Of a DNA stretch of 31,519 bases, positions 2,693 to 26,792 are shown piece after piece. The stretch covers positions 1 to 31,519 of IMG/VR virus record IMGVR_UViG_3300037460_000072, one strand, 5' to 3'. Each line of letters begins with the position of its first letter. The stretch's first letter is position 1. This DNA comes from a virus. The position numbers were made by a program, and so were the translations under genes. The notes below the pieces were generated by a model that saw nothing but the letters and a program-made list of their open reading frames with translations, did no database searches and was not told the DNA's origin.

Positions 2693-2735
2693 GCCGCACA
2701 ACTGCACAATCCTGCAACGATTCAGTGAGTGAACC

Positions 2736-2740
2736 GGAGG
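2736..2740 (+). promoter_or_regulatory. Ribosome binding site that fixes the methyltransferase start
   Basis: GGAGG lies 5 nt before ATG 2746. The in-frame GTG at 2725 lies upstream of this site and the GTG at 2743 is only 2 nt from it, so ATG 2746 is preferred. Confidence 0.7.
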
Positions 2741-2745
2741 CCGTG

Positions 2746-4182
2746 ATGGCTGAAAACAACGAACAACCGCAAGAGAATGACGACGACAACCGCCCAGACC
2801 TGCTGACAATCGCGCAGGACATCGCACCCGAAATTCAAATCGAATATGTCGACCGCACGACGCTCGAGCCGTATGCGCGAAACAGTCGCACCCACAGCGA
2901 GGCGCAGATCGAGGAAATCGTCGCGTCGATCCGTGAGTTCGGTTTCATCGATCCGATACTGAGGCGCGGCAACATGATCGTCGCAGGCCACGCACGCAAC
3001 CAGGCAGCCGAGCGCGCAGGCCTGACGCGTGTGCCGACCATCGACCTCGATCACCTGAGCATGAACCAGGCGCGCGCCCTCGTGATCGCGCACAATCGCA
3101 TCGCTGAGCGGGCCGGGTGGGATCACGACATGCTGCGCCTCGAGGTCACCGAGCTGCGCGAGGAACAGTTCGACCTCGCCGTGCTGGGATTCGATCTGCC
3201 CGAAATCGACGCCATGATCGGGCCTGAGGACGAACCCGCTGTGCCTGAGCCAGAAGCGCCACCCGACGAACCCCAGTGCATGCAGGGCGACGTGTGGATC
3301 CTCGGCGACCACCGCATCATGTGTGGCGACTGTCGATCTGACGAGGACATGGTGCGCCTGTTCGGCGAACGTCGAATCGATATCGCGATCACGTCGCCGC
3401 CGTACGCCTCGCAGCGCAAATACGACGAGACATCAGGATTCGAACCGATCAAGCCTGAGGACTTCAGCGACTGGTTCGACGCCGTCCAGGACAACATCGC
3501 GACGCACCTGGCTGACGACGGCTCGCTGTTTCTCAACATCAAGGAACACTGCGAGGAGGGGCAGCGCCTGCTGTACGTCAAGGATCTGACGCTCGCGTTC
3601 GTGCGCCGGTTCGATTGGTTTTTCGTCGACGAATACTGCTGGACGCACGGCGGCACGCCGATGAACGTGATCAACCGATTCAAAAACGGGTGGGAGCCGG
3701 TGTTTCACTTTTCGAAGGGCAAGCACAAATTCAGGCCTGAGCATGTGCGCCACAAAACCGACCACGAAATCGACTGGGGCGGCAAACACCCATCGCAACG
3801 CGACGGCCTGGTCGACATGGGTTTCGACAAAGACCAGGCGACCGATCACATGGCGAAACGTGACTACGTGGTCGGCATGGCGTATCCGTCGAACGTCCTC
3901 AAGATGGGAACGAATACCGAAAACTGGGCGCACGGCGCGATGTTCCCGGTGTCGCTGCCTGAGTTTTTCATCAAGGCGTACACCGACGAGGGCGACAACG
4001 TGTTCGATCCGTTCATGGGATCTGGCACGACGGTGATCGCCGCGGAAAAGCTCAAGCGCATATCGTTCGGCATGGAAATCAGCCCCGGGTATTGCGACGT
4101 GATCATCACCAGGTGGATGGAATTCACCGGCCTGACGGCGACCCACGAGGACACGGGCGAATCATTCGTCGTGGCTGAATGA
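2746..4182 (+). CDS. ParB-like domain / DNA methyltransferase fusion
   Basis: From ATG 2746 the product has 478 residues. Residues 30-150 form a ParB/Srx-like domain: ARNSRTHSEAQIEEIV, a conserved GFIDPI and the loop GHARNQAAERAG at 81-92. A Pro/Glu-rich linker (about 160-178) leads to a beta-class amino-methyltransferase. The catalytic motif TSPPY is at 216-220, and the AdoMet-binding DPFMGSGTT is at 421-429, near the C-terminus. TSPPY is typical of N4-cytosine enzymes, though some N6-adenine enzymes also carry it; the recognition site cannot be read from sequence. No clear cognate restriction enzyme is present, so it probably protects phage DNA or marks it for packaging, consistent with the terminase genes one base downstream. 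It has its own promoter region and strong ribosome site. Confidence 0.9.
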   Translation: MAENNEQPQENDDDNRPDLLTIAQDIAPEIQIEYVDRTTLEPYARNSRTHSEAQIEEIVASIREFGFIDPILRRGNMIVAGHARNQAAERAGLTRVPTIDLDHLSMNQARALVIAHNRIAERAGWDHDMLRLEVTELREEQFDLAVLGFDLPEIDAMIGPEDEPAVPEPEAPPDEPQCMQGDVWILGDHRIMCGDCRSDEDMVRLFGERRIDIAITSPPYASQRKYDETSGFEPIKPEDFSDWFDAVQDNIATHLADDGSLFLNIKEHCEEGQRLLYVKDLTLAFVRRFDWFFVDEYCWTHGGTPMNVINRFKNGWEPVFHFSKGKHKFRPEHVRHKTDHEIDWGGKHPSQRDGLVDMGFDKDQATDHMAKRDYVVGMAYPSNVLKMGTNTENWAHGAMFPVSLPEFFIKAYTDEGDNVFDPFMGSGTTVIAAEKLKRISFGMEISPGYCDVIITRWMEFTGLTATHEDTGESFVVAE

Positions 4183-9815: not shown

Positions 9816-10814
9816 ATGGCCCTCGTGCAGATCGCTGATGTCGTAGTACCAGAAGTTTTCACGCCGTACGTGCAACTCACCACCGAGCAAAAATCACGCG
9901 TCATTCAGTCGGGTGCCGCGATCCGAAACGGTCAATTCGATTCGAGCCTCGCAGGCGGTGGCCTGACGTTCAATGATCCAAGCTGGAACGATCTGGCAGA
10001 TGATGCTGACAACATCGGTGACGATTCCGAGACGCCGGCAACGCCGAACAAGCTGACCTCGAACCAGGAGGTGCAGGTTCGCCTGTCCAGGAACCAGCAC
10101 TGGAAAACCGCTGACCTGTCTGCCGCACTGGCTGGCAGCGATCCGTCGACCGCAATCGCAAATAAGGTCGCAGGCTACTGGGCGCGACGCATGCAGGCCG
10201 CACTCATTGCCACAATGACCGGCGTTTTCGCTGACAATACGGCGAACTATGCTGGCGACTACACGAACGACATCTCAGGCGCATTCAGCGCAGGCGTGAC
10301 GGATTTCTCAGCCGAGGCATTGATCGACGCAGTCGCCACCGCAGGCGATTCGCTCGAAGATTTCTCGATGCTGATGGTGCATTCAATCGTGTACGCGAAA
10401 ATGCGCAAAAACAATCTGATCGATTTCATCCGCGACAGCGACAACGACACGCGCATTGCGCGGTTCGGTGACCTCGAGGTGATCGTCGACGACGGCATGC
10501 CTGTTGCGACGCAGGACTATGACAGCTGGATTTTCGGACCTGGTGCAATTCAGGTCGGCGTCGGCACGCCGAAAGTGCCAACCGAAGTGACGCGCGAAGC
10601 GCTGCAAGGCTTAGGCGCAGGCACTGAGGTGTTGTCGTCCAGGCTCGAGCAGATCCTGCACCCGGCAGGTCACGCGTACACCGGAACCGCCGCAAACGGT
10701 GGCCCGAGCAACGCAGCAACCGCGCAAAACCTCGCGCACGTTGACAGCTGGGATCGTGTCTACCCCGAGCGCAAGCAAATCAAAATCGCTCGCCTGATCA
10801 CGACCGAGGCCTAA
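9816..10814 (+). CDS. Major capsid protein
   Basis: A 332-residue protein beginning at ATG 9816 after a strong CAGGAG site. It starts IADVVVPEVFTPYV and has the layout of HK97-fold coat proteins: an N-terminal arm, a long helix near residues 105-130 (IANKVAGYWARRMQAALIAT), a central FSMLMVHSIVYAKMRKNNLI segment at about 186-205 typical of the coat-protein family, and a loop VIVDDGMPVA that often precedes the A-domain. It follows the scaffold gene and is closed by a hairpin terminator. The fold assignment is by family resemblance. No internal protease site or fused scaffold domain is visible. Confidence 0.85.
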   Translation: MALVQIADVVVPEVFTPYVQLTTEQKSRVIQSGAAIRNGQFDSSLAGGGLTFNDPSWNDLADDADNIGDDSETPATPNKLTSNQEVQVRLSRNQHWKTADLSAALAGSDPSTAIANKVAGYWARRMQAALIATMTGVFADNTANYAGDYTNDISGAFSAGVTDFSAEALIDAVATAGDSLEDFSMLMVHSIVYAKMRKNNLIDFIRDSDNDTRIARFGDLEVIVDDGMPVATQDYDSWIFGPGAIQVGVGTPKVPTEVTREALQGLGAGTEVLSSRLEQILHPAGHAYTGTAANGGPSNAATAQNLAHVDSWDRVYPERKQIKIARLITTEA

Positions 10815-11649: not shown

Positions 11650-12279
11650 ATGGCTGCGGGCGACGAGCGCGAAGCCTACTACCGCCGACAAAACACAAAG
11701 CAACGGCGCGCGGTAGTTGCATGGCTGGCTGACAACAAACCCGATCAGACCGGGAAATTATTCGGCGTCCTGAATGCGGGCGGCGCTGATTACGTTGTCG
11801 GCGACATCGGCACGATCACAGGCGGCACATTTACTGAGCAGGCGGTATTTCGCGTCGAGGCGGTATCTGGCGGCGCTGTCACTGCCGTTGGCATATTGGA
11901 TCGAGGCGCGTACACGGTGAACCCGGGCGTCGGCGCGGCGACTGTCGCGACAACTGGCATCGGCACAGGCCTGACGATTGACACGTCGCTCGGTGACGTA
12001 TTCACCGGCCAGGTGTTCGCAGGCACGCGCGCAAAAACCGCGATCACTGGAATTCAGGCACGCAAGAAAAACGGCCTCGGCGTACTGCAGCTGCGCGTTG
12101 CAGGATCAGACGTCGGCGTGATTGCGGTCGGCCCGACATACACCGCACTCGGCAATGTCGCGGCGAATGCGCTTGTCGAAATATCGATCACGACAGGTTT
12201 CGCGGGCGTTGAATATATCGATTTGATCGACAGTCGCGGCAATCCGATGGGGCGCGGCGTGATCAATGCAGGGCCATAA
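11650..12279 (+). CDS. Beta-rich structural protein with YVVG module
   Basis: A 209-residue protein with a basic N-terminal helix (about 5-28) and then Gly/Thr/Val-rich beta strands. Residues 41-98 hold a module NAGGADYVVGDIGTITGGT ... ILDRGAYTVNP that recurs in the structural gene at 24175. The C-terminal half (about 125-209) looks like a separate beta domain. Its place after the capsid gene suggests a head decoration protein or fibre base. It has no transmembrane segment. It is separated by two bases from the next gene, and nothing enzymatic is visible. Confidence 0.6.
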   Translation: MAAGDEREAYYRRQNTKQRRAVVAWLADNKPDQTGKLFGVLNAGGADYVVGDIGTITGGTFTEQAVFRVEAVSGGAVTAVGILDRGAYTVNPGVGAATVATTGIGTGLTIDTSLGDVFTGQVFAGTRAKTAITGIQARKKNGLGVLQLRVAGSDVGVIAVGPTYTALGNVAANALVEISITTGFAGVEYIDLIDSRGNPMGRGVINAGP

Positions 12280-12281
12280 CC

Positions 12282-12716
12282 ATGATCAGCGTTTGCTTTT
12301 ATGTCGAGGCGACAGGCACTTGCGGAAAGCAACTCAGGGTTGATAAATGGACTGCGCTGGCGCAGTCATTCGGTGTCGATCGGATGCTGGTTGTTGATCG
12401 AACCGGCCTCGAGTGCTTCGACCCACAATCGCAAATCGACTTGACCGTTCACAAAAACCTGAACGATGCGCTGAGCCAGTTTCCGCAGGCGACAGTGGTG
12501 CTGGCAGACAAAAACAAAGGCGTCGCGTACCACGATTATCAGCAGCCCGACGGCGACGTGATCTACTGCTTTGGATCTGACACGGCAGGATATCGAGGCG
12601 AAGCGCCCGACGATTGCGATTGGATCACCGTACCGTCTGACACAAAATATGAGCTATGGGCCGTCCAGGCGGCGACTCTGGTGATGGGAGACAGGTGGCG
12701 TCGTGGCAATCCTTGA
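12282..12716 (+). CDS. SPOUT (TrmH/TrmJ)-methyltransferase-like protein in head operon
   Basis: The 144-residue protein resembles a compact SPOUT RNA methyltransferase. It has a TAKAFGV-like block (KWTALAQSFGVDRMLVVD at 22-39), an Ala/Leu helix with fxdAL (NDALSQFPQATVVLAD at 61-76), a motif II-like VIYCFGSDTAGYRG at 93-106 and a motif III-like DCDWITVPSDTKYELWAVQA at 111-130. The Ser-Leu-Asn of canonical motif III is not present, so catalysis is doubtful and it may be a fold reused for structure or regulation. It lies among structural genes. The family call is mine by pattern only. It overlaps the next gene by 14 nt. Confidence 0.5.
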   Translation: MISVCFYVEATGTCGKQLRVDKWTALAQSFGVDRMLVVDRTGLECFDPQSQIDLTVHKNLNDALSQFPQATVVLADKNKGVAYHDYQQPDGDVIYCFGSDTAGYRGEAPDDCDWITVPSDTKYELWAVQAATLVMGDRWRRGNP

Positions 12717-14517
12717 TAACAGGACGCTGATTGCTGACGCAGAGGTCGTCGACCCTACAGGCAACGGTATATGGGAGGACGAGACCGGCTCGAACATGGG
12801 TGTCGGCACCAACACCATCCACATCGAGGGCAGCGGATCAATCAGCAAACGAATATCTGCCACGCTTGGCGCGATCCTGTTCAACTACGAGGCGTCGACA
12901 GATCTTAGCGGTTCAGTGATATATGCGTGGATCAATGTATCGACTCCTGCGGCGCTCGACACGTTTGCAGGCGGCGGCATTCGCATGCGTTTCACCGGGA
13001 ATACCGTCACTGACTGGTTCGACGTTTTTCTGGAAGGCTCAGACACTTACAACGGCGGGTGGCTGATGCTGGTTGTTGACGTTGACGACGCGAAAACTGC
13101 ATCGGATGCAGTCAACGGAACACCGCCAGCGACGACCGCAATTGAGCGCGTCGGAATCGTATTCGATGTAACTGGCATGGCGGCGGGCGCTGATGATAAC
13201 TGCCTGGTCGATGCCATGTGGAGCCTCGCAGCTGCCACGCCCGGCATCATTGTCGCCGGTCAAAATGCAAGCAACCCCTGGACGTTCGAGGACATTGTTC
13301 AGGCAGCGGATGTCGCCGACGACACGAAAGCGTGGGGAACGTGCAGCCGACTAAGCAACGGCACAATCGCGCTCAACACGCCCGTGCAATTTGGGCAGGA
13401 CGACAGCACGCAGGACGAGTTCGAGGACTTCAACGAGGTGATCGGCTTTGACCTGAATCCTGTGCCTGACGGTTTCTATGGCCTGTCACAAGTTGCTGGA
13501 ACGGGGCAATCTGACGTGACAATGGGAATCAAAACCGGCAGCGGTGACGACGCCACAGGCGCGCAGGGCATTGTCGTCACGTCAGGCGGGCCGCGATGGT
13601 TTATGGATTTCAACGATCCGGACATCGACAGTGCCGGATTCTACGGCTGCCAGCTGCAGCACGGCGGCGATTTCCTGCTCGACGATGTCGCTGTCGAGGT
13701 GATTTCGACGAACTATATCGACTGCGTGTATGCGCTGATTTCGAATTCGTTGCAGCTGCGGATCGCGAGCATCGCACCTGCCACCGCTGACGGTGTCGCG
13801 TTCATGCAGACCGACCAGCTCGACGATATTCGGTACTCGAGGTTCGAGTTCCTGGACGGCCACGCGATTGAGCTTGTGACGCCCCTGGACGCGACCCAGG
13901 CGAGCGTCGAGAATGTCTTTGACGCTGGGTTCGGTGCCGACGGAACGAACGATGCGGCGCTGTACAACAACCAGGCGGGCGCGGTGGTGATCAGCCGCAC
14001 GGGTGGCACAGCGCCGACCGTACGCAACGGCACGAGCGCATCGACGACGATCAATGCGACAGTGAATTTCGAATTGTCGAACGTGGTCAGCGGCACGACA
14101 TTCAACCTCGACGGCATTTTCACGCTCGCCACTGCAGGCGCGACGTGGAACGACACGGGCGACAGCATCATTCGAATGACGGCCAGCGTGCCGTCTAGCT
14201 TTGCGACCTCGGGCGACGTGCGCCTGTGGAATGGTACATACTACGAAACGTATGCATACACCGGGATCAGCGGCACCGATCTCACAGGCGTGACGCCGAC
14301 ACTGTCGCAGGACTTCTCTGCGGCGAAAGCGCTCCTCGTGATGATAGCGCCGAAATCAATCACACTGGATCCACACACTGAAAACGTCGAAGCGAATCAA
14401 CAGTTCGAGGCAATGCTGGCAAATGGCAGCGGCAGCCCAGTGTACAAGCCAGAATTTTTCGAAGATAACGCGGCAGCAGGATTTTCAAGACGAGTCGCAC
14501 AAATAGAGGACGCATAA
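12703..14517 (+). CDS. Large beta-rich virion protein A (capsid-region fibre candidate)
   Basis: GTG 12703 gives 604 residues with no recognised enzyme motif. The N-terminal 170 residues contain alternating hydrophobic strands and Asp/Gly loops, like a carbohydrate-binding or jelly-roll domain. Residues about 190-480 have the repetitive Asn/Asp/Gly/Val character of a right-handed beta-helix (for example VAVEVISTNYIDCVYALIS). Residues 494-550 hold a module (GDVRLWNGTYYETYAYTGIS) shared with the next gene. The position after head genes and the long beta architecture suggest a head fibre or decoration. No signal peptide or membrane segment is seen. The gene ends one base before the related next gene. 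Confidence 0.55.
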   Translation: MAILDNRTLIADAEVVDPTGNGIWEDETGSNMGVGTNTIHIEGSGSISKRISATLGAILFNYEASTDLSGSVIYAWINVSTPAALDTFAGGGIRMRFTGNTVTDWFDVFLEGSDTYNGGWLMLVVDVDDAKTASDAVNGTPPATTAIERVGIVFDVTGMAAGADDNCLVDAMWSLAAATPGIIVAGQNASNPWTFEDIVQAADVADDTKAWGTCSRLSNGTIALNTPVQFGQDDSTQDEFEDFNEVIGFDLNPVPDGFYGLSQVAGTGQSDVTMGIKTGSGDDATGAQGIVVTSGGPRWFMDFNDPDIDSAGFYGCQLQHGGDFLLDDVAVEVISTNYIDCVYALISNSLQLRIASIAPATADGVAFMQTDQLDDIRYSRFEFLDGHAIELVTPLDATQASVENVFDAGFGADGTNDAALYNNQAGAVVISRTGGTAPTVRNGTSASTTINATVNFELSNVVSGTTFNLDGIFTLATAGATWNDTGDSIIRMTASVPSSFATSGDVRLWNGTYYETYAYTGISGTDLTGVTPTLSQDFSAAKALLVMIAPKSITLDPHTENVEANQQFEAMLANGSGSPVYKPEFFEDNAAAGFSRRVAQIEDA

Positions 14518-14518
14518 A

Positions 14519-16390
14519 ATGGCACTTACAAAAGGCGACTGGAGTGTCGCAGCGAACGGAGACATTCGCGAGGTCGCGGGAAGCACGCAGCATGAGGTGA
14601 TTGAGATGCACCGATGGCTGATGGATCTGCTCGACGATACGAGCGCAACGGGCGACGACCTGGTCGACGTTTCGAACGGTATCATTCCGAGCGCACGGTC
14701 GACCGACAACATCATTGCGTTGAACACGCCGTACAACATCGACAAAACGGTGTCGGAGCGTTTCTACAACGGCAGCATGTCGTACAACGACGGCGACGAC
14801 CTGTACTCAGGCCTGCGCGTCGTGGGCACCGTTTCAGGAACCACCGAGATTGAAATCATCCAGGACAACGCGCTCGTCACCGATTACTGGGGAACCGGTC
14901 TGAATGCCGTGCCGGCCGAATCGATCCTGCTGCAGATCATGCTCAAAACCCGCACGGCGGGCGCTGACATCGATGGCAAGCGACTCAGGTGTCAGGCGCG
15001 CGAGCTGGGCGACACGTACGCCGAATTCAGCGTCACGCTCGGCACCGCATTCGGTGTCGCGGCACTGTTCACCGGTACGGATGATTTCTACCAGTCGAGC
15101 GAACCGACGATTTCCGGATGGTCTGACATCGTCGTCACTGAGGGGTACGTGCAGATCGATGTCGATGGCAACTCTGTCGACGAAAACTACATCTGCAGCA
15201 TTGATCAGGGCACCCGCACGACGGCGAATATGTACGAGCGCGGCAAGTGGATCGGGCGACGTGGAACGGTGACGACCATTTTCGGTCTGAACGGCGCGCT
15301 GTTCCGAGGCATCACGCACGATGTCGATGTGACCGGCATCGCGTCAGGCCCATTGACGCAGTCTGAGGAGCTTACCTGGACGGAGGCTGGCACGGTGTCG
15401 TCAGGTCAATTGCTGGCAGCCGATTCGCTCGCTGCGCCTGGTACGTTGTGGATCCAACTCACGACAGGCATTGCGCCGACCAACGGCACGGAGCTGACAG
15501 GTGGCGCGTCAGGCGCGACGCTCGATGTCGACACCGGCGGCACGACCTCGAGGACGATCAATACGAACAGCTGGCTCGGCAACTACGCTGGCTCGCTGAC
15601 AGGCAATTTCGGCATCGGTGTCGAGGCAGCAGATCTGACGAACATCAACGACAGTCTGCGTGCGCTGGACAACATCGCCAGGAACCCGCCGAACAACGTG
15701 CAACTGATCGCGACGGCACTCGTCGTCGGTGACATTTTGTTCGCTGCAAAAACAAAGGAACACACCAGCACGGTGTCAGGCGCGCATTCGATTGGCGACA
15801 CGACGCTGACGCTGGCGGGCGGCATTCCTGTCGACTACGACACAATCGGTCGCATCGTCGTCGACGGCATCGAGCATACGTTCACCGGGTATTCGGGCGC
15901 TGACGTGACAATCGGCGGCAGCGGATTGAAAGCGGCGCTCGCAGGCGGCGAAGACATTTCGGTGATCCAGTTTTTCAACGACGAATTCCTGACAACCGCA
16001 GACGCTGGCACGGTCAACGGATCAGGCGACGTGATTGTCGAATTCACCGTTGCACCTGGTTCGGCATGGCCGTCGAGCGGCATCGTGTGGTTGTGGGACG
16101 GCGTCGACCGATATGACGAATACTCGTACACGTCGATCAGTGGTGATCAACTGCTCGGCATTTCGCCTGCGCTGACGCAGTCGTACGGATCGATCCCCGG
16201 GTATATTCCGTTCGTATCGGAAGTCGCAGCGGCGGCGAGCATATCGAAAACAATCGTGTACCCAGGATCCGCGGTGCCTGGACGCTGGCGGCTGTACAAC
16301 TCGGCAGCGAACATCACGCCGTTCGAGGTGGCGTTCAGCATCGAGGCCACGGGCAGCAGCACGCCCATGACGAGGATCAGCGATGCCTAG
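14519..16390 (+). CDS. Large beta-rich virion protein B (capsid-region fibre candidate)
   Basis: A 623-residue protein starting at ATG 14519, with its ribosome site (AGAGGA) in the end of the preceding gene. It is beta-rich throughout. The first 100 residues include a recurring IALNTPYNI-type segment, also echoed in protein A (IALNTPVQF). A phage IGDTTLTL-type module lies near 420-480, followed by the shared module SSGIVWLWDGVDRYDEYSYT at 519-538 and ISGDQLLGISP at 540-550. The short C-terminal endings of A and B are also alike (QIEDA and RISDA). It is probably a structural partner of protein A. A tail role is less likely, as connector genes intervene before the tail module. Confidence 0.55.
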   Translation: MALTKGDWSVAANGDIREVAGSTQHEVIEMHRWLMDLLDDTSATGDDLVDVSNGIIPSARSTDNIIALNTPYNIDKTVSERFYNGSMSYNDGDDLYSGLRVVGTVSGTTEIEIIQDNALVTDYWGTGLNAVPAESILLQIMLKTRTAGADIDGKRLRCQARELGDTYAEFSVTLGTAFGVAALFTGTDDFYQSSEPTISGWSDIVVTEGYVQIDVDGNSVDENYICSIDQGTRTTANMYERGKWIGRRGTVTTIFGLNGALFRGITHDVDVTGIASGPLTQSEELTWTEAGTVSSGQLLAADSLAAPGTLWIQLTTGIAPTNGTELTGGASGATLDVDTGGTTSRTINTNSWLGNYAGSLTGNFGIGVEAADLTNINDSLRALDNIARNPPNNVQLIATALVVGDILFAAKTKEHTSTVSGAHSIGDTTLTLAGGIPVDYDTIGRIVVDGIEHTFTGYSGADVTIGGSGLKAALAGGEDISVIQFFNDEFLTTADAGTVNGSGDVIVEFTVAPGSAWPSSGIVWLWDGVDRYDEYSYTSISGDQLLGISPALTQSYGSIPGYIPFVSEVAAAASISKTIVYPGSAVPGRWRLYNSAANITPFEVAFSIEATGSSTPMTRISDA

Positions 16391-16730
16391 ACTCGACAAG
16401 GACACGTTCGACGCGTGTCGCGCGTATCACGATCTGCGGTACTCGCATTGGCCCGACGACGCGCGCGAGGCGCGTCGCGCGGCCTGCGTTCGACAGTTGA
16501 AAAACCTGCCGCCCGAGCGTCAGGAAAAGTATCGTGACGATGTCGCGTTGTTCATGGAAAAAAACGGTCACCTGCTGACGCAGATCGAGGAGGCACGGAA
16601 AACGATCCAGCACAATCAACGCACCGAGGCATTGTTGCAAATGCCTGTCGAGCGGCGCGACGCACTTCTGCGCAAGCACGGTGGCAATGTGAATGCTGTC
16701 CTGGACGAGGTCTGTGGCCGTTACCATTGA
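16383..16730 (+). CDS. Small helical protein of unknown function
   Basis: ATG 16383 overlaps the end of protein B by 8 nt. The 115 residues are highly charged and helical (DAREARRAACVRQLKNLPPE, then EEARKTIQHNQRTEALLQMP) with few hydrophobic residues and no transmembrane segment. It could be a small chaperone or an internal head component. It has no recognised family and overlaps the next gene by 17 nt if that starts at GTG 16714. Confidence 0.5.
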   Translation: MPRLDKDTFDACRAYHDLRYSHWPDDAREARRAACVRQLKNLPPERQEKYRDDVALFMEKNGHLLTQIEEARKTIQHNQRTEALLQMPVERRDALLRKHGGNVNAVLDEVCGRYH

Positions 16731-17265
16731 CAACATACGCGTCGAATTTTACGCGAGCCCGCAACCGCTGATCACGTTCCTGCAGGGTCGTGATATGTCG
16801 GTGCCGACGATTCGCGACACGCTTCGCGAGATTGAGGAAACAATCGAGGGTCGACATCACTCAGGCAGCGTGTCAGGCGCACCCAGGAACACCGGGCGCG
16901 GTTGGATCTGCGAGGCGACCGGTAACATCACAACACCCGCCGACGAGCTGATCGCGCTGTCAGTGATCCTGAACGTGCCGTTTCAGGCGCAATTCGAGGC
17001 AGGTGCGATCCCGTTCATTTCGAAGGACGGCAACCTGTACGGGGATCTGCTCGACAGTCCTGGCGCAATCGTCGTGATCAACAACAGCGTCGGCCTGCTG
17101 GGCAGCAGTGAAATCGAACAGATCAAAAACGTTGTCGAGGCCGACCAGGTCAAGGGCAGCGGGCAATTGCAGACGCGACTGCGCGGCACGACAACCGAAC
17201 TGATCCCACGAAAGGACGTGACAGGCGACAGCGGCCCGGCGAATGTTACGATCACCGAGCCGTGA
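16714..17265 (+). CDS. Structural-region protein of unknown function
   Basis: The frame is open from ATG 16693, but GTG 16714 has GAGG three bases upstream and fits the overlap pattern, giving 183 residues (either start is possible). The product begins VAVTIDNIRVEFYASPQPLI. The N-terminal third is mixed helix and strand, with a HHSGSVSGAPRN loop (about 47-58) and a GDLLDSPGAIVVINNS segment mid-protein. It precedes the acidic microprotein and a tail-like Ig protein. No family is recognised; by position it is probably a virion or head-completion protein. Confidence 0.55.
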   Translation: MAVTIDNIRVEFYASPQPLITFLQGRDMSVPTIRDTLREIEETIEGRHHSGSVSGAPRNTGRGWICEATGNITTPADELIALSVILNVPFQAQFEAGAIPFISKDGNLYGDLLDSPGAIVVINNSVGLLGSSEIEQIKNVVEADQVKGSGQLQTRLRGTTTELIPRKDVTGDSGPANVTITEP

Positions 17266-21289: not shown

Positions 21290-21706
21290 GTGAATATATA
21301 TGAGGCGTTCGAAACGAGCGACGAACTGACGGAGAAAGGCAGGTGGATCGAGTTGGAATTTGCGGGTGCGGTTTTAGCATCGATCAGGATTCGCAGCGCG
21401 AGTCCAGATCTGAACGCAGACCTGCGCAAAGCAATGGCCGAGGAAGCGGTCGCCACCATCGCGACGATGCAAGGCCTGACCGACTCGGTCGCAGATCCCG
21501 AACTGGAGAATCGATTGTTCGGCGAGGCTGTCGTCACCGCATGGAAAGGCATCACGGATCGCAAAGGCAAGGCGATCAAATGCACGCCGAAAAATGTCGC
21601 GAAGGTGTTCAAGGATCTGCCGCTGCTGGCGCAACGCGTGAAGCGCGAGGCGTACAAGTGGACGAACTTCCGCACGCAGTTCGAGGAAACCGCACTGGGA
21701 AACTGA
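21290..21706 (+). CDS. Tail assembly chaperone G
   Basis: A 138-residue protein starting at GTG 21290 after an AAAGGG-type site. It is helical and charged (SPDLNADLRKAMAEEAVATI; KAIKCTPKNVAKVFKDLPLL), as expected for a G-type chaperone that holds the tape measure before tube assembly. Its position between the tube and tape-measure genes is standard. The gene ends with GGGAAAC and a stop one base later, and the overlapping -1 frame continues as the T part, so this is the shorter of two products. Confidence 0.8.
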   Translation: MNIYEAFETSDELTEKGRWIELEFAGAVLASIRIRSASPDLNADLRKAMAEEAVATIATMQGLTDSVADPELENRLFGEAVVTAWKGITDRKGKAIKCTPKNVAKVFKDLPLLAQRVKREAYKWTNFRTQFEETALGN

Positions 21707-22071
21707 CCGAGGTTTTGCGGCACGGTCTGCGAGGCATGGCAGATCCGCAAGACCAGGACAACATCGCGAAAAGTTACATCGAACGAGGCCTGCCAGTTCC
21801 CGAACGCATCACCGCACCGCCGCGGATCGCGCCCGAGCATCAGCTGTACTGGACGGCATACGCCGACCTGCAACACGACAGGCCAGATCCCGGCTTTCGT
21901 GGCGGCATGCGCCGCATTCCGTGGGGAGCGATTGCGCGATACGCGTCGCACTACGGTTTGAACGTCGACGAGCTGAAACGATTCATCTGGGCGCTCGACT
22001 CGGAATTCCTCAACGCGACAACGACACCACCTGTCGACGACGACAACGACAAGGATCCCGACAATGGCTGA
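21290..22071 (+). CDS. Tail assembly chaperone G-T fusion by -1 frameshift
   Basis: Slipping one base back at GGGAAAC (21697-21703) lets the ribosome enter the -1 frame, which is open past 21706 and adds 122 residues (LTEVLRHGLRGMADPQ ... PDNG), for about 260 residues in total. The extension is helical with WTAYADLQHDRPDP and ARYASHYGLNVDELKRF segments, and ends 8 nt inside the tape-measure gene. Lambda-like phages make G and G-T in a fixed ratio this way, which is required for tail assembly. No independent strong start exists for the second frame. Confidence 0.8.
21697..21703 (+). other. -1 ribosomal frameshift slippery site GGGAAAC
   Basis: In frame it reads G GGA AAC, the classic X XXY YYZ heptamer, placed directly before the G stop codon (TGA 21704-21706). 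The -1 frame is open on both sides of it. A weak 5-bp stem (21705-21709 with 21723-21727) follows; it is too weak to call a stimulator. Confidence 0.8.
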
Positions 22072-24174: not shown

Positions 24175-25518
24175 ATGCCGTGGATTGAACAACAACTGAT
24201 CGCAGACGGTGTCACCGCTGAGGGTCGCATCGTCGTCAATAAGGCGATCCTCGAAATGATCACGAATGACCAGGTGCTGACGCTCGCTGTGAACGCAGGC
24301 GGCACCGGGTACGTGGTCGGCGAAACATTCGACATCGTCGGCGGCACGGCGCTCGCTGTGAACGGTGCGACGTTCAACGCGACAGGACGTGTCACCGCGG
24401 AATCAGGCGGCGTCGTGTCAGGCATCGAGATTTTGTCCTCAGGCGCATATTCGGCAGATCCGACACTGACAGGCGCGACAACGACGAACGCGAGCGCAGC
24501 GGGCAATGACGACCTCACAGTCGACATCACGATGCAGACCGCACGCTGGACTCAGGACGAAAGCGACTACGTCGACCTGCTGACGAATTTCGAGTGGTTG
24601 GGCACGTCGGTCAAATCAACGAACGCGCCCACGATTGGCGGGCAGTCGCAGCTCAGCGGCGCGAATGACGGCATTCGCATCCAGATCGCGAGCGGATACG
24701 ATTCGGGCTCGACCTGGTTGGCGCAACCTGGTGCGCCGCCGTCGAATAACTTCTACGTCAATTTGCCGAACGGCGATCCGCAACTGTACGTGTCGATCAC
24801 CGAGCGCCGCGTCAATTTCATGGTGTCGAACGGATCGAACCACCAGTACGGCGGCATGGGTTTGTTCATACCGATCACTGACGTGGCCGGCAACTATCCG
24901 TTCCCGGGTTTCGCTCACGGTCAATCGACAACCGTGCGCGCAATTACCGAGTCGCGCAGCGCGTCATTGAACAGCGGCCTGGTGAATCCTCTCGACAACG
25001 GTGGATTCGGCCCGTACCAATATCGCGATAATCTGTCGTCGCTGTGGTTCTCAATATCCAACAACAACAACGGCGGCGCAGAGTCGTCGAATGCGCAGAT
25101 CTGGCCTGATCAAAGCGAGTGGGGAAATTGGGAATTCAACTACGCGCCCGTGCCTGCGGGCAGCACGGCAACGGCGGTAATGATGAATCCACTGACGCAA
25201 AACAAGCGAGCCGAATGCGCGTTTCTCGAGAGCGAGTGGTTCGAAACCGCGGCACCGCCTGGCACGTTCGATCAACCGCAAGGACCGCAACCGCTTGGGC
25301 CTGGCAATCAGCTGCATTTCACATGCGTGGCGCACATCATTAGCAACAAGACAAACGAATCAATGATCATCGGCTACGTCGACGGATGGGAAAACGTGCA
25401 CGGTCGCGGGCTGACTGTGTTCGACGAAATCGCAACAGCGTCAGGTCGACGATACCTCGTATTTCAAGACACCGGATCCACCGAGCTGTGGCGCTGGGTC
25501 GCAATGGAGAAACTCTGA
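24175..25518 (+). CDS. Tail structural protein A with YVVG module
   Basis: A 447-residue beta-rich protein with ribosome site GGAGA. Residues 1-37 are a short helix/strand start (WIEQQLIADGVTAEGR). Residues 38-96 hold the NAGGTGYVVGETFDIVGGT ... ILSSGAYSADP module also found in the 11650 protein. The rest has a SITERRVNFMVSNGSN segment and ends with GRRYLVFQDTGSTELWRWVA, both echoed in the next protein. Located after the tape measure, it is likely a tail-tip or side-fibre component. No cleavage or catalytic site is visible. Confidence 0.6.
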   Translation: MPWIEQQLIADGVTAEGRIVVNKAILEMITNDQVLTLAVNAGGTGYVVGETFDIVGGTALAVNGATFNATGRVTAESGGVVSGIEILSSGAYSADPTLTGATTTNASAAGNDDLTVDITMQTARWTQDESDYVDLLTNFEWLGTSVKSTNAPTIGGQSQLSGANDGIRIQIASGYDSGSTWLAQPGAPPSNNFYVNLPNGDPQLYVSITERRVNFMVSNGSNHQYGGMGLFIPITDVAGNYPFPGFAHGQSTTVRAITESRSASLNSGLVNPLDNGGFGPYQYRDNLSSLWFSISNNNNGGAESSNAQIWPDQSEWGNWEFNYAPVPAGSTATAVMMNPLTQNKRAECAFLESEWFETAAPPGTFDQPQGPQPLGPGNQLHFTCVAHIISNKTNESMIIGYVDGWENVHGRGLTVFDEIATASGRRYLVFQDTGSTELWRWVAMEKL

Positions 25519-26792
25519 TGCCGTACCGTACAGGCAGCACGCCGTTCACTGGCGACGACGATATGGCCGACTTTTTGGTTGACGTGTGGATACCGTTCGC
25601 GACCGACTCGTTCGTGGCTGGCGGGCTCGCATGGATATCGCAAAGCCCAGACGGCGGAGCGCCACCGGGCGGCGGCGGCACGCATCCGAATTATCAGCGC
25701 ATGGTCAGTCGTGGCGGCGTCGGCACCGAGGCGCCACCGTTTATCAATTTCCAAACGAGCGCGAAAACGCTTTTCATTTTCAGCGGCACTGACGTGAACA
25801 CCGGGCAGGAGCCATACGATCAACCAGGCAACCCTCAAAACGGGCCGATTGACGCAGTGTTCGGCGACCCGGGCCACAACATCGAACTGCAATGTGCCGG
25901 GCTGACAACAATGGTCGGCCCTTTCGATTCGTACTGGTTGTTCGGCGGGCCGTCGGCAGAATATCTGCACTGCGTGATCAAAGTCAGCGCGCGGCAGTAT
26001 CGTCATTTCCACGTCGGCATGATCACGCCGCTCGATCCTGATTTGCATGCGGATAGTTTCTACATCACGCAGCACCGATGGAATTTCCTCGAGCCTGACA
26101 ATTTCTCGATGCAACAAAGCGGCACCGTGAATTCGCTAAACAGCGAGCATCAGCCGTACCAAAGCGGGCACATCATGCCGTTTCGAAACAACGGCACCGG
26201 CGTGAACGTCGCTGTCGGTCAGGATTTCCGTCAGTCGGGCCTGTGGCTCTATTCGCCCGGGTATGGCACGGAGGCATACGACTGGTGGATGGCAGTCGGT
26301 ACGCGTCGCTGCCCAGACGCTAGCGGCGGCGGCGGTGGCACGAGCGTACCTGGACGGGCGCAAAACGTAAGCCAACCGGCATCGACGCGCAGTGTGATCG
26401 CGACGACGAAAGTGATCGGCGACGTGAACGAGGCAGCCGACGACGTGTTGTTCGGCGCAGCGTTTGTGTCTGGGTACGACGCCACGCTCGGGACGGTTCC
26501 GTGGGCTTGCGAGCCGACGTTTGTCACCGACGGCGTGCCGCTGATCCCGATCTACGTCGGCCTGCCGACTGACTTCGAAAGCGCCTTGCGATGGGGCCCG
26601 GTCGCGCAGGTGCCTGACGTGTTCCGCGTGAATATGAAAAACCTCGATGCCGAGGAGGAAATCACGGTCGGATCCGACACGTACATCGTGTTTCCAATGA
26701 TCAACAAGGACAGCGCGAACACGCTCGACAACGAGGGATACAGTGGATACGAGGGCCTCGCGTACAAAAAAATCACAGCTGACGCGAGCTAG
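25518..26792 (+). CDS. Tail structural protein B, related to preceding protein
   Basis: ATG 25518 shares a base with the previous stop, and the frame gives 424 residues; an upstream in-frame start at 25386 falls in the previous gene and is rejected. It is beta-rich with GGGG linkers (near 50-56 and 270-276). The C-terminus SDTYIVFPMINKD is the counterpart of the preceding GRRYLVFQDTG, and SARQYRHFHVGMITPLD resembles SITERRVNF ... MGLFIPI. The two are probably diverged paralogues that form adjacent parts of the tail tip. The function is otherwise unknown. Confidence 0.55.
   Translation: MPYRTGSTPFTGDDDMADFLVDVWIPFATDSFVAGGLAWISQSPDGGAPPGGGGTHPNYQRMVSRGGVGTEAPPFINFQTSAKTLFIFSGTDVNTGQEPYDQPGNPQNGPIDAVFGDPGHNIELQCAGLTTMVGPFDSYWLFGGPSAEYLHCVIKVSARQYRHFHVGMITPLDPDLHADSFYITQHRWNFLEPDNFSMQQSGTVNSLNSEHQPYQSGHIMPFRNNGTGVNVAVGQDFRQSGLWLYSPGYGTEAYDWWMAVGTRRCPDASGGGGGTSVPGRAQNVSQPASTRSVIATTKVIGDVNEAADDVLFGAAFVSGYDATLGTVPWACEPTFVTDGVPLIPIYVGLPTDFESALRWGPVAQVPDVFRVNMKNLDAEEEITVGSDTYIVFPMINKDSANTLDNEGYSGYEGLAYKKITADAS

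Follow-up and report, generated by a model that had tools for sequence, protein, structure and literature searches.

SPOUT methyltransferases belong to a superfamily whose families differ in their active sites and redesign them; by the account of a 2007 survey, none of its known members lacked enzymatic activity (PMC1829167). Among its members is TrmL (YibK, COG0219), a tRNA Cm34/Um34 2'-O-methyltransferase. In the E. coli enzyme, residues Asn14, Glu102, Ser130 and Asn132 lie at SAH or contact it (PMC3763551). We found these four residues, as well as Arg20 and Arg129, to be invariant in 22 out of 22 aligned TrmL sequences.

Here, we analyzed a gene located at positions 12282..12716 (+ strand) of the window, i.e. 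the whole stretch of 31,519 nucleotides of viral DNA under study. The gene extends from an ATG at 12282 to a stop at 12716 and encodes a protein of 144 aa, hereafter P0001. It lies in an operon of structural genes, all on the forward strand, with terminase, portal, head morphogenesis, scaffold and major capsid genes upstream, and neck, tail-tube and tail-assembly genes downstream. The head cluster is anchored by the major capsid protein (9816..10814, + strand; PHROG 247, E=1.5e-99). Directly upstream of P0001, g209 (11650..12279, + strand) codes for a putative head-decoration protein (PHROG 9703, a weak match at E=0.0013), and P0001 starts 3 nt past its stop at 12279. Directly downstream, the GTG start of g604 at 12703 overlaps the end of the P0001 gene by 14 nt. 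A sequence-only reading of the window had placed a 144-residue protein amid structural genes, and the ORF proved to be real, with g209 before it and a 604-aa gene after it.

Other features of the window were recorded along the way. The g209 product exceeds its homologues in close relatives (about 124 aa) by about 85 residues, and by eye this extra part looks similar to a segment within the structural gene at 24175. That gene belongs to an adjoining pair (24175-26792) that looks like a tandem duplication, both members matching the structural-protein profile PHROG 687. Region 2725-4182 encodes an adenine-type DNA methyltransferase fused to a ParB-like domain (PHROG 498, E=6e-97). Finally, in region 21290-22071, a 138-aa ORF occupies the tail-chaperone position just upstream of the tape measure gene and shares part of its sequence with a longer ORF read in a different frame, an arrangement comparable to that of tail assembly chaperones produced by programmed frameshift.

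Sequence comparisons support well the view that P0001 is a genuine, remote SPOUT homologue. The Pfam SpoU_methylase profile (PF00588) matched residues 49-134 with E = 4.6e-6, at a score of 27.2 bits that is 2.5 bits under the curated membership cut-off of 29.7. The NCBIfam TrmL model TIGR00185 provided a weak second witness, with 16.1 bits against an equivalog cut-off of 190.6. SPOUT HMM profiles were then built from 76 cellular SPOUT proteins, with two negative controls: 2,000 shuffles of P0001, and 8,197 natural ORFs taken from contigs of related phages. P0001 outscored all 2,000 shuffles in every profile tested. TrmL was its best single-family match (17.1 vs 7.4 bits for the shuffles), and the RlmB/TrmH, TrmJ and all-SPOUT profiles gave 12.2 vs 6.3, 7.6 vs 5.0 and 20.5 vs 8.4 bits, respectively. 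The significant match spans residues ~45-141 and covers motifs 2 and 3. Furthermore, the all-SPOUT profile produced only two outliers among the 8,197 phage ORFs: P0001 and an ORF of contig L063.

The L063 ORF (L063:6192-6569) encodes a protein of 125 aa and lies in a contig whose major capsid protein is 51% identical to that of the window. This relative reached 26.0 bits against the SPOUT profiles (shuffles, at most 6.6), its best match being the RlmB/TrmH HMM (23.5 bits), and hhalign aligned it with TrmL (89%, E = 2.1e-6); it had no match in Pfam. P0001 and the L063 relative are 26% identical. Compared directly, they show weak similarity (28% over 60 residues; E = 2e-6 when taken as one comparison), and the score of 26.9 bits exceeds the best of 2,000 shuffles (25.8 bits) by a narrow margin. 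Both proteins share the last-helix signature [WY]EL[YW]AxQAA. It is the combination of signature, profile and position that makes their kinship probable, and they are the only two members of this SPOUT-like family that were found.

A profile combining the two phage proteins pushed the SPOUT match out to residue 26, leaving the N-terminal 25 residues of P0001 unaligned, and matched TrmL over 116 columns (hhalign, 92.6%, E=4.6e-7). When this profile was searched against all PDB sequences, SPOUT enzymes (SpoU methylase, TrmL, TrmJ, TrmH and rRNA methyltransferase) accounted for 7 of the 9 matches with E up to 10; individually these matches are weak (best SPOUT E = 0.023), and their register agrees. 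Profile similarity is significant over the knot region, which places P0001 in the SPOUT superfamily by homology. The resemblance first noticed by eye thus exceeds chance with PF00588, with our HMMs against shuffles, in profile-profile comparison and in the PDB profile search. All three blocks quoted in support of that resemblance are present in P0001, but the one designated motif I was not matched by single-sequence profiles.

Alignments with TrmL revealed that the active site is not preserved. Motif 2, the AdoMet-pocket loop, was located by HMM and hhalign alignment to TrmL and reads FGSDTAGY in P0001 (residues 97-104; 12570..12593, + strand); it conforms to the FGx[ED]xxG pattern with both glycines present, TrmL Glu102 being replaced by Asp. 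The motif 3 region, VPSDTKYELWAVQAA (residues 117-131; 12630..12674, + strand), was aligned with the L063 relative and TrmL. The SpoU-type Ser-x-Asn is absent from it, the corresponding residues being Glu-Leu-Trp in P0001 (TrmL Ser130 to Glu, Asn132 to Trp) and Glu-Leu-Tyr in the L063 relative, and no counterpart of TrmL Arg129 is kept in P0001. The earlier observation that motif III lacks Ser-Leu-Asn was therefore correct. The Asn14 of motif 1 (NxGxxxR) is absent from P0001 in both alignments examined; the column of the catalytic Arg20 corresponds to Ala25 in hhalign, and to Arg19 in the other alignment, where the Asn is replaced by Thr. In the L063 relative, motif 2 reads FGASNELM: its second glycine and its acid are gone, and the segment linking strand 2 to strand 3 is missing as well. 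Both phage proteins have a pI of 4.6 and a net charge of about -7 to -8.

Judged from these alignments, catalysis has likely been lost in P0001, and its acidity and residue losses are at odds both with tRNA binding and with a conserved site for a cofactor. The idea of a phage RNA methyltransferase acting on host tRNA or rRNA finds no support: P0001 has neither the Ser and Asn of motif 3 nor the Asn of motif 1, the L063 relative lacks a motif 2 glycine, both proteins are acidic, and the 31.5-kb viral window contains no tRNA gene. Since P0001 misses the family cut-off and has lost the motif 3 residues, we did not file it as a SpoU methylase.

P0001 could instead have diverged while remaining active, as an AdoMet-dependent enzyme whose active site has been rebuilt and whose substrate might be a protein, such as the g604 product or a capsid protein. 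The well-preserved FGSDTAGY loop would suit such an enzyme, and the acidic yeast SPOUT protein Sfm1, whose surface charge is reversed, methylates a protein (PMC9508554). Another, unusual chemistry is conceivable, since active-site redesign is documented for SPOUT families (PMC1829167). However, the loss of the motif 3 Ser and Asn and of the motif 1 Asn argues against an active enzyme, as does the L063 relative, in which the acid and second glycine of motif 2 are lost along with the strand 2-3 segment, so that the AdoMet site is not conserved across the family. We therefore consider a retained methyltransferase activity unlikely.

We observed that the P0001 gene and g604 form a conserved pair. 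g604 (12703..14517, + strand) encodes a beta-rich, virion-type protein of 604 aa, 39% identical over 445 aa (E~1e-82) to its homologue at L063:6562-8217. In L063 too, the stop of the SPOUT-like gene overlaps the start of the g604 homologue directly downstream. The virus Rctr197k has no SPOUT-like gene and encodes a g604 homologue of full length. The L063 and Rctr197k homologues matched the structural protein gp54 of Syn5 (E = 8e-12 and 6e-13, respectively), which is reportedly a horn component; g604 itself gave no significant direct match to gp54, so that the link is indirect via L063 and Rctr197k. No g604 homologue was found in bacterial genomes, in a search run without a positive control. 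The g604 product is a probable virion appendage component. Furthermore, g604 is followed by g623, g115 and g190 (14519..17265, + strand), which complete the module and have homologues in L191 (71%, 32% and 47% identity, respectively, order kept). L191 is an unrelated phage with a different portal, in which a g604 C-terminal domain precedes these three homologues (L191:2874-8021). Since the same gene order occurs in an unrelated phage, the block is a structural module that moves between phages. The suggestion that a SPOUT fold serves here as a structural part is favoured by the association with a gene of virion type, which is conserved together with the overlapping ends; P0001 may be present in the virion, as gene position and pairing suggest.

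The P0001 gene is absent from the close relatives that cover the region (L003, L004, L005, L007 and L008; capsid proteins 77-85% identical), and in L008 the decoration gene leads straight to a g604-like position. A tblastn search of P0001 against phages and plasmids returned nothing useful, and scanning contigs of viruses and bacteria for peptide patterns revealed no relative. PF00588 had no match in 50 related records, which did not include L063; as the L063 relative has no Pfam match, this negative result leaves room for diverged members. No SPOUT family occurs among the 38,880 phage protein families of PHROGs, and we found no description of a SPOUT-like protein in a virion in the open-access literature.

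Several candidates were rejected. The FGSDTAGY DNA pattern hit 15 stretches of viral contigs, all in wrong frames or in unrelated genes. The best weak matches of P0001 in 398 genomes from the phylum of a Methylococcaceae genome were chance similarities or cellular TrmL (L101). Matches of E. coli TrmL and TrmH in phage records were mostly deposited bacterial sequence, as judged from record names and, for several, 90-100% identity. The TrmL genes of two IMG/VR viral contigs (L186 and L187) are host genes flanking prophages, beside integrase or glycolysis genes; naive counts of viral SPOUT proteins would therefore be inflated by bacterial prophage flanks. Given these two host flanks and the lack of SPOUT families in PHROGs, phage-borne SPOUT-like proteins appear to be rare.

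The P0001 gene could also be accessory cargo lodged in a structural operon, its product acting in the host outside the virion, for example as a decoy binding RNA or a tRNA enzyme. Among the 25 genes compared, it is lowest in G+C (0.56) and deviates most in codon use, and it is missing between g209 and the next gene in L008 and from the other covering relatives. Conversely, the gene has stayed adjacent to g604, with overlapping ends, in two phages with capsid proteins as distant as 51% identity, and P0001 is acidic and would therefore bind RNA poorly. We consider a cargo gene improbable.

Structure predictions were too poor to show a knot, AlphaFold giving a mean pLDDT of 54.9 for P0001 alone and 44.8 for P0001 with four TrmL fragments. 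The single-sequence model (pLDDT 55) had a strand/helix order compatible with SPOUT over its first two thirds, and a fold search with it returned only weak, uninformative matches, to universal stress and Rossmann-type folds. These matches, the Pfam score under cut-off and the unaligned N-terminal residues could suggest a Rossmann-like alpha/beta protein resembling the C-terminal half of SPOUT by chance, but this is very unlikely, as two independent phage proteins each score far above shuffles in SPOUT profiles and the phage-only profile draws mainly SPOUTs from PDB in the right register.

The SPOUT homology, the loss of motif residues and the conserved overlapping gene pair form the observed basis of our interpretation. 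Because the active site is lost and the gene is paired with one for a probable virion appendage, P0001 has probably been reused for a function other than RNA methylation. We tentatively propose, as a reading that falls just short of probable, that P0001 is a SPOUT-derived, non-catalytic protein working through g604 as a dimerising adaptor or assembly chaperone. Its ancestor would be a minimal SPOUT 2'-O-methyltransferase of the TrmL/TrmH type, of which P0001 would be a remote, degenerate descendant. Of the C-terminal half, which is knotted in SPOUT enzymes, P0001 keeps the core of the sequence, last helix included, and its own fold would be truly knotted. In TrmL-type enzymes, this last helix makes the dimer. 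The residues that hold AdoMet and catalyze the transfer have been lost, and P0001 presumably binds no AdoMet. Co-produced with the g604 protein, P0001 would most likely act via this appendage protein, to which the gene pairing suggests that it binds. Against this explanation, P0001 might still bind AdoMet, as both glycines of its motif 2, and an acid, are still in place. The family of only two members, the narrow pairwise margin, the g604 of Rctr197k without a SPOUT-like gene and the failure of either model to give a confident knot also count against it.

More broadly, a knotted SPOUT enzyme domain captured by phages may have given up catalysis to serve an appendage protein of the capsid or tail as a structural partner or chaperone, founding an uncatalogued phage family; this wider claim is possible but somewhat doubtful. 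If true, a phage lineage would carry the SPOUT core without an active site, indicating that the knot is usable as a scaffold, and would offer a natural test of what the fold must keep when selection for catalysis is lifted.

Compared with known systems, the pair recalls the gp53/gp54 horn module of Syn5, as gp54 shares a domain with g604-type proteins via L063 and Rctr197k; unlike the window, the Syn5 genome has no SPOUT-like gene. P0001 resembles the protein-arginine SPOUT methyltransferase Sfm1 in its reversed, acidic surface (PMC9508554), but Sfm1 needs its own C-terminal domain for activity and no sequence match between the two was found. The likeness to the TrmH/RlmB family (COG0566), which provided the best match of the L063 relative, is clear in the C-terminal helix, whereas Ser-Leu-Asn, the NxGxxxR motif and the extension domains of that family are missing from the phage proteins. 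TrmL differs by its invariant Asn14, Arg129, Ser130 and Asn132, which the acidic P0001 does not keep, and by its invariant Arg20, which falls on Ala25 or Arg19 of P0001 depending on the alignment; in contrast, the two proteins are alike in consisting of the SPOUT domain only (157 vs 144 aa), in the predicted strand/helix order of the first two thirds, in the FGx[ED]xxG loop and in the [IV]P before the last helix.
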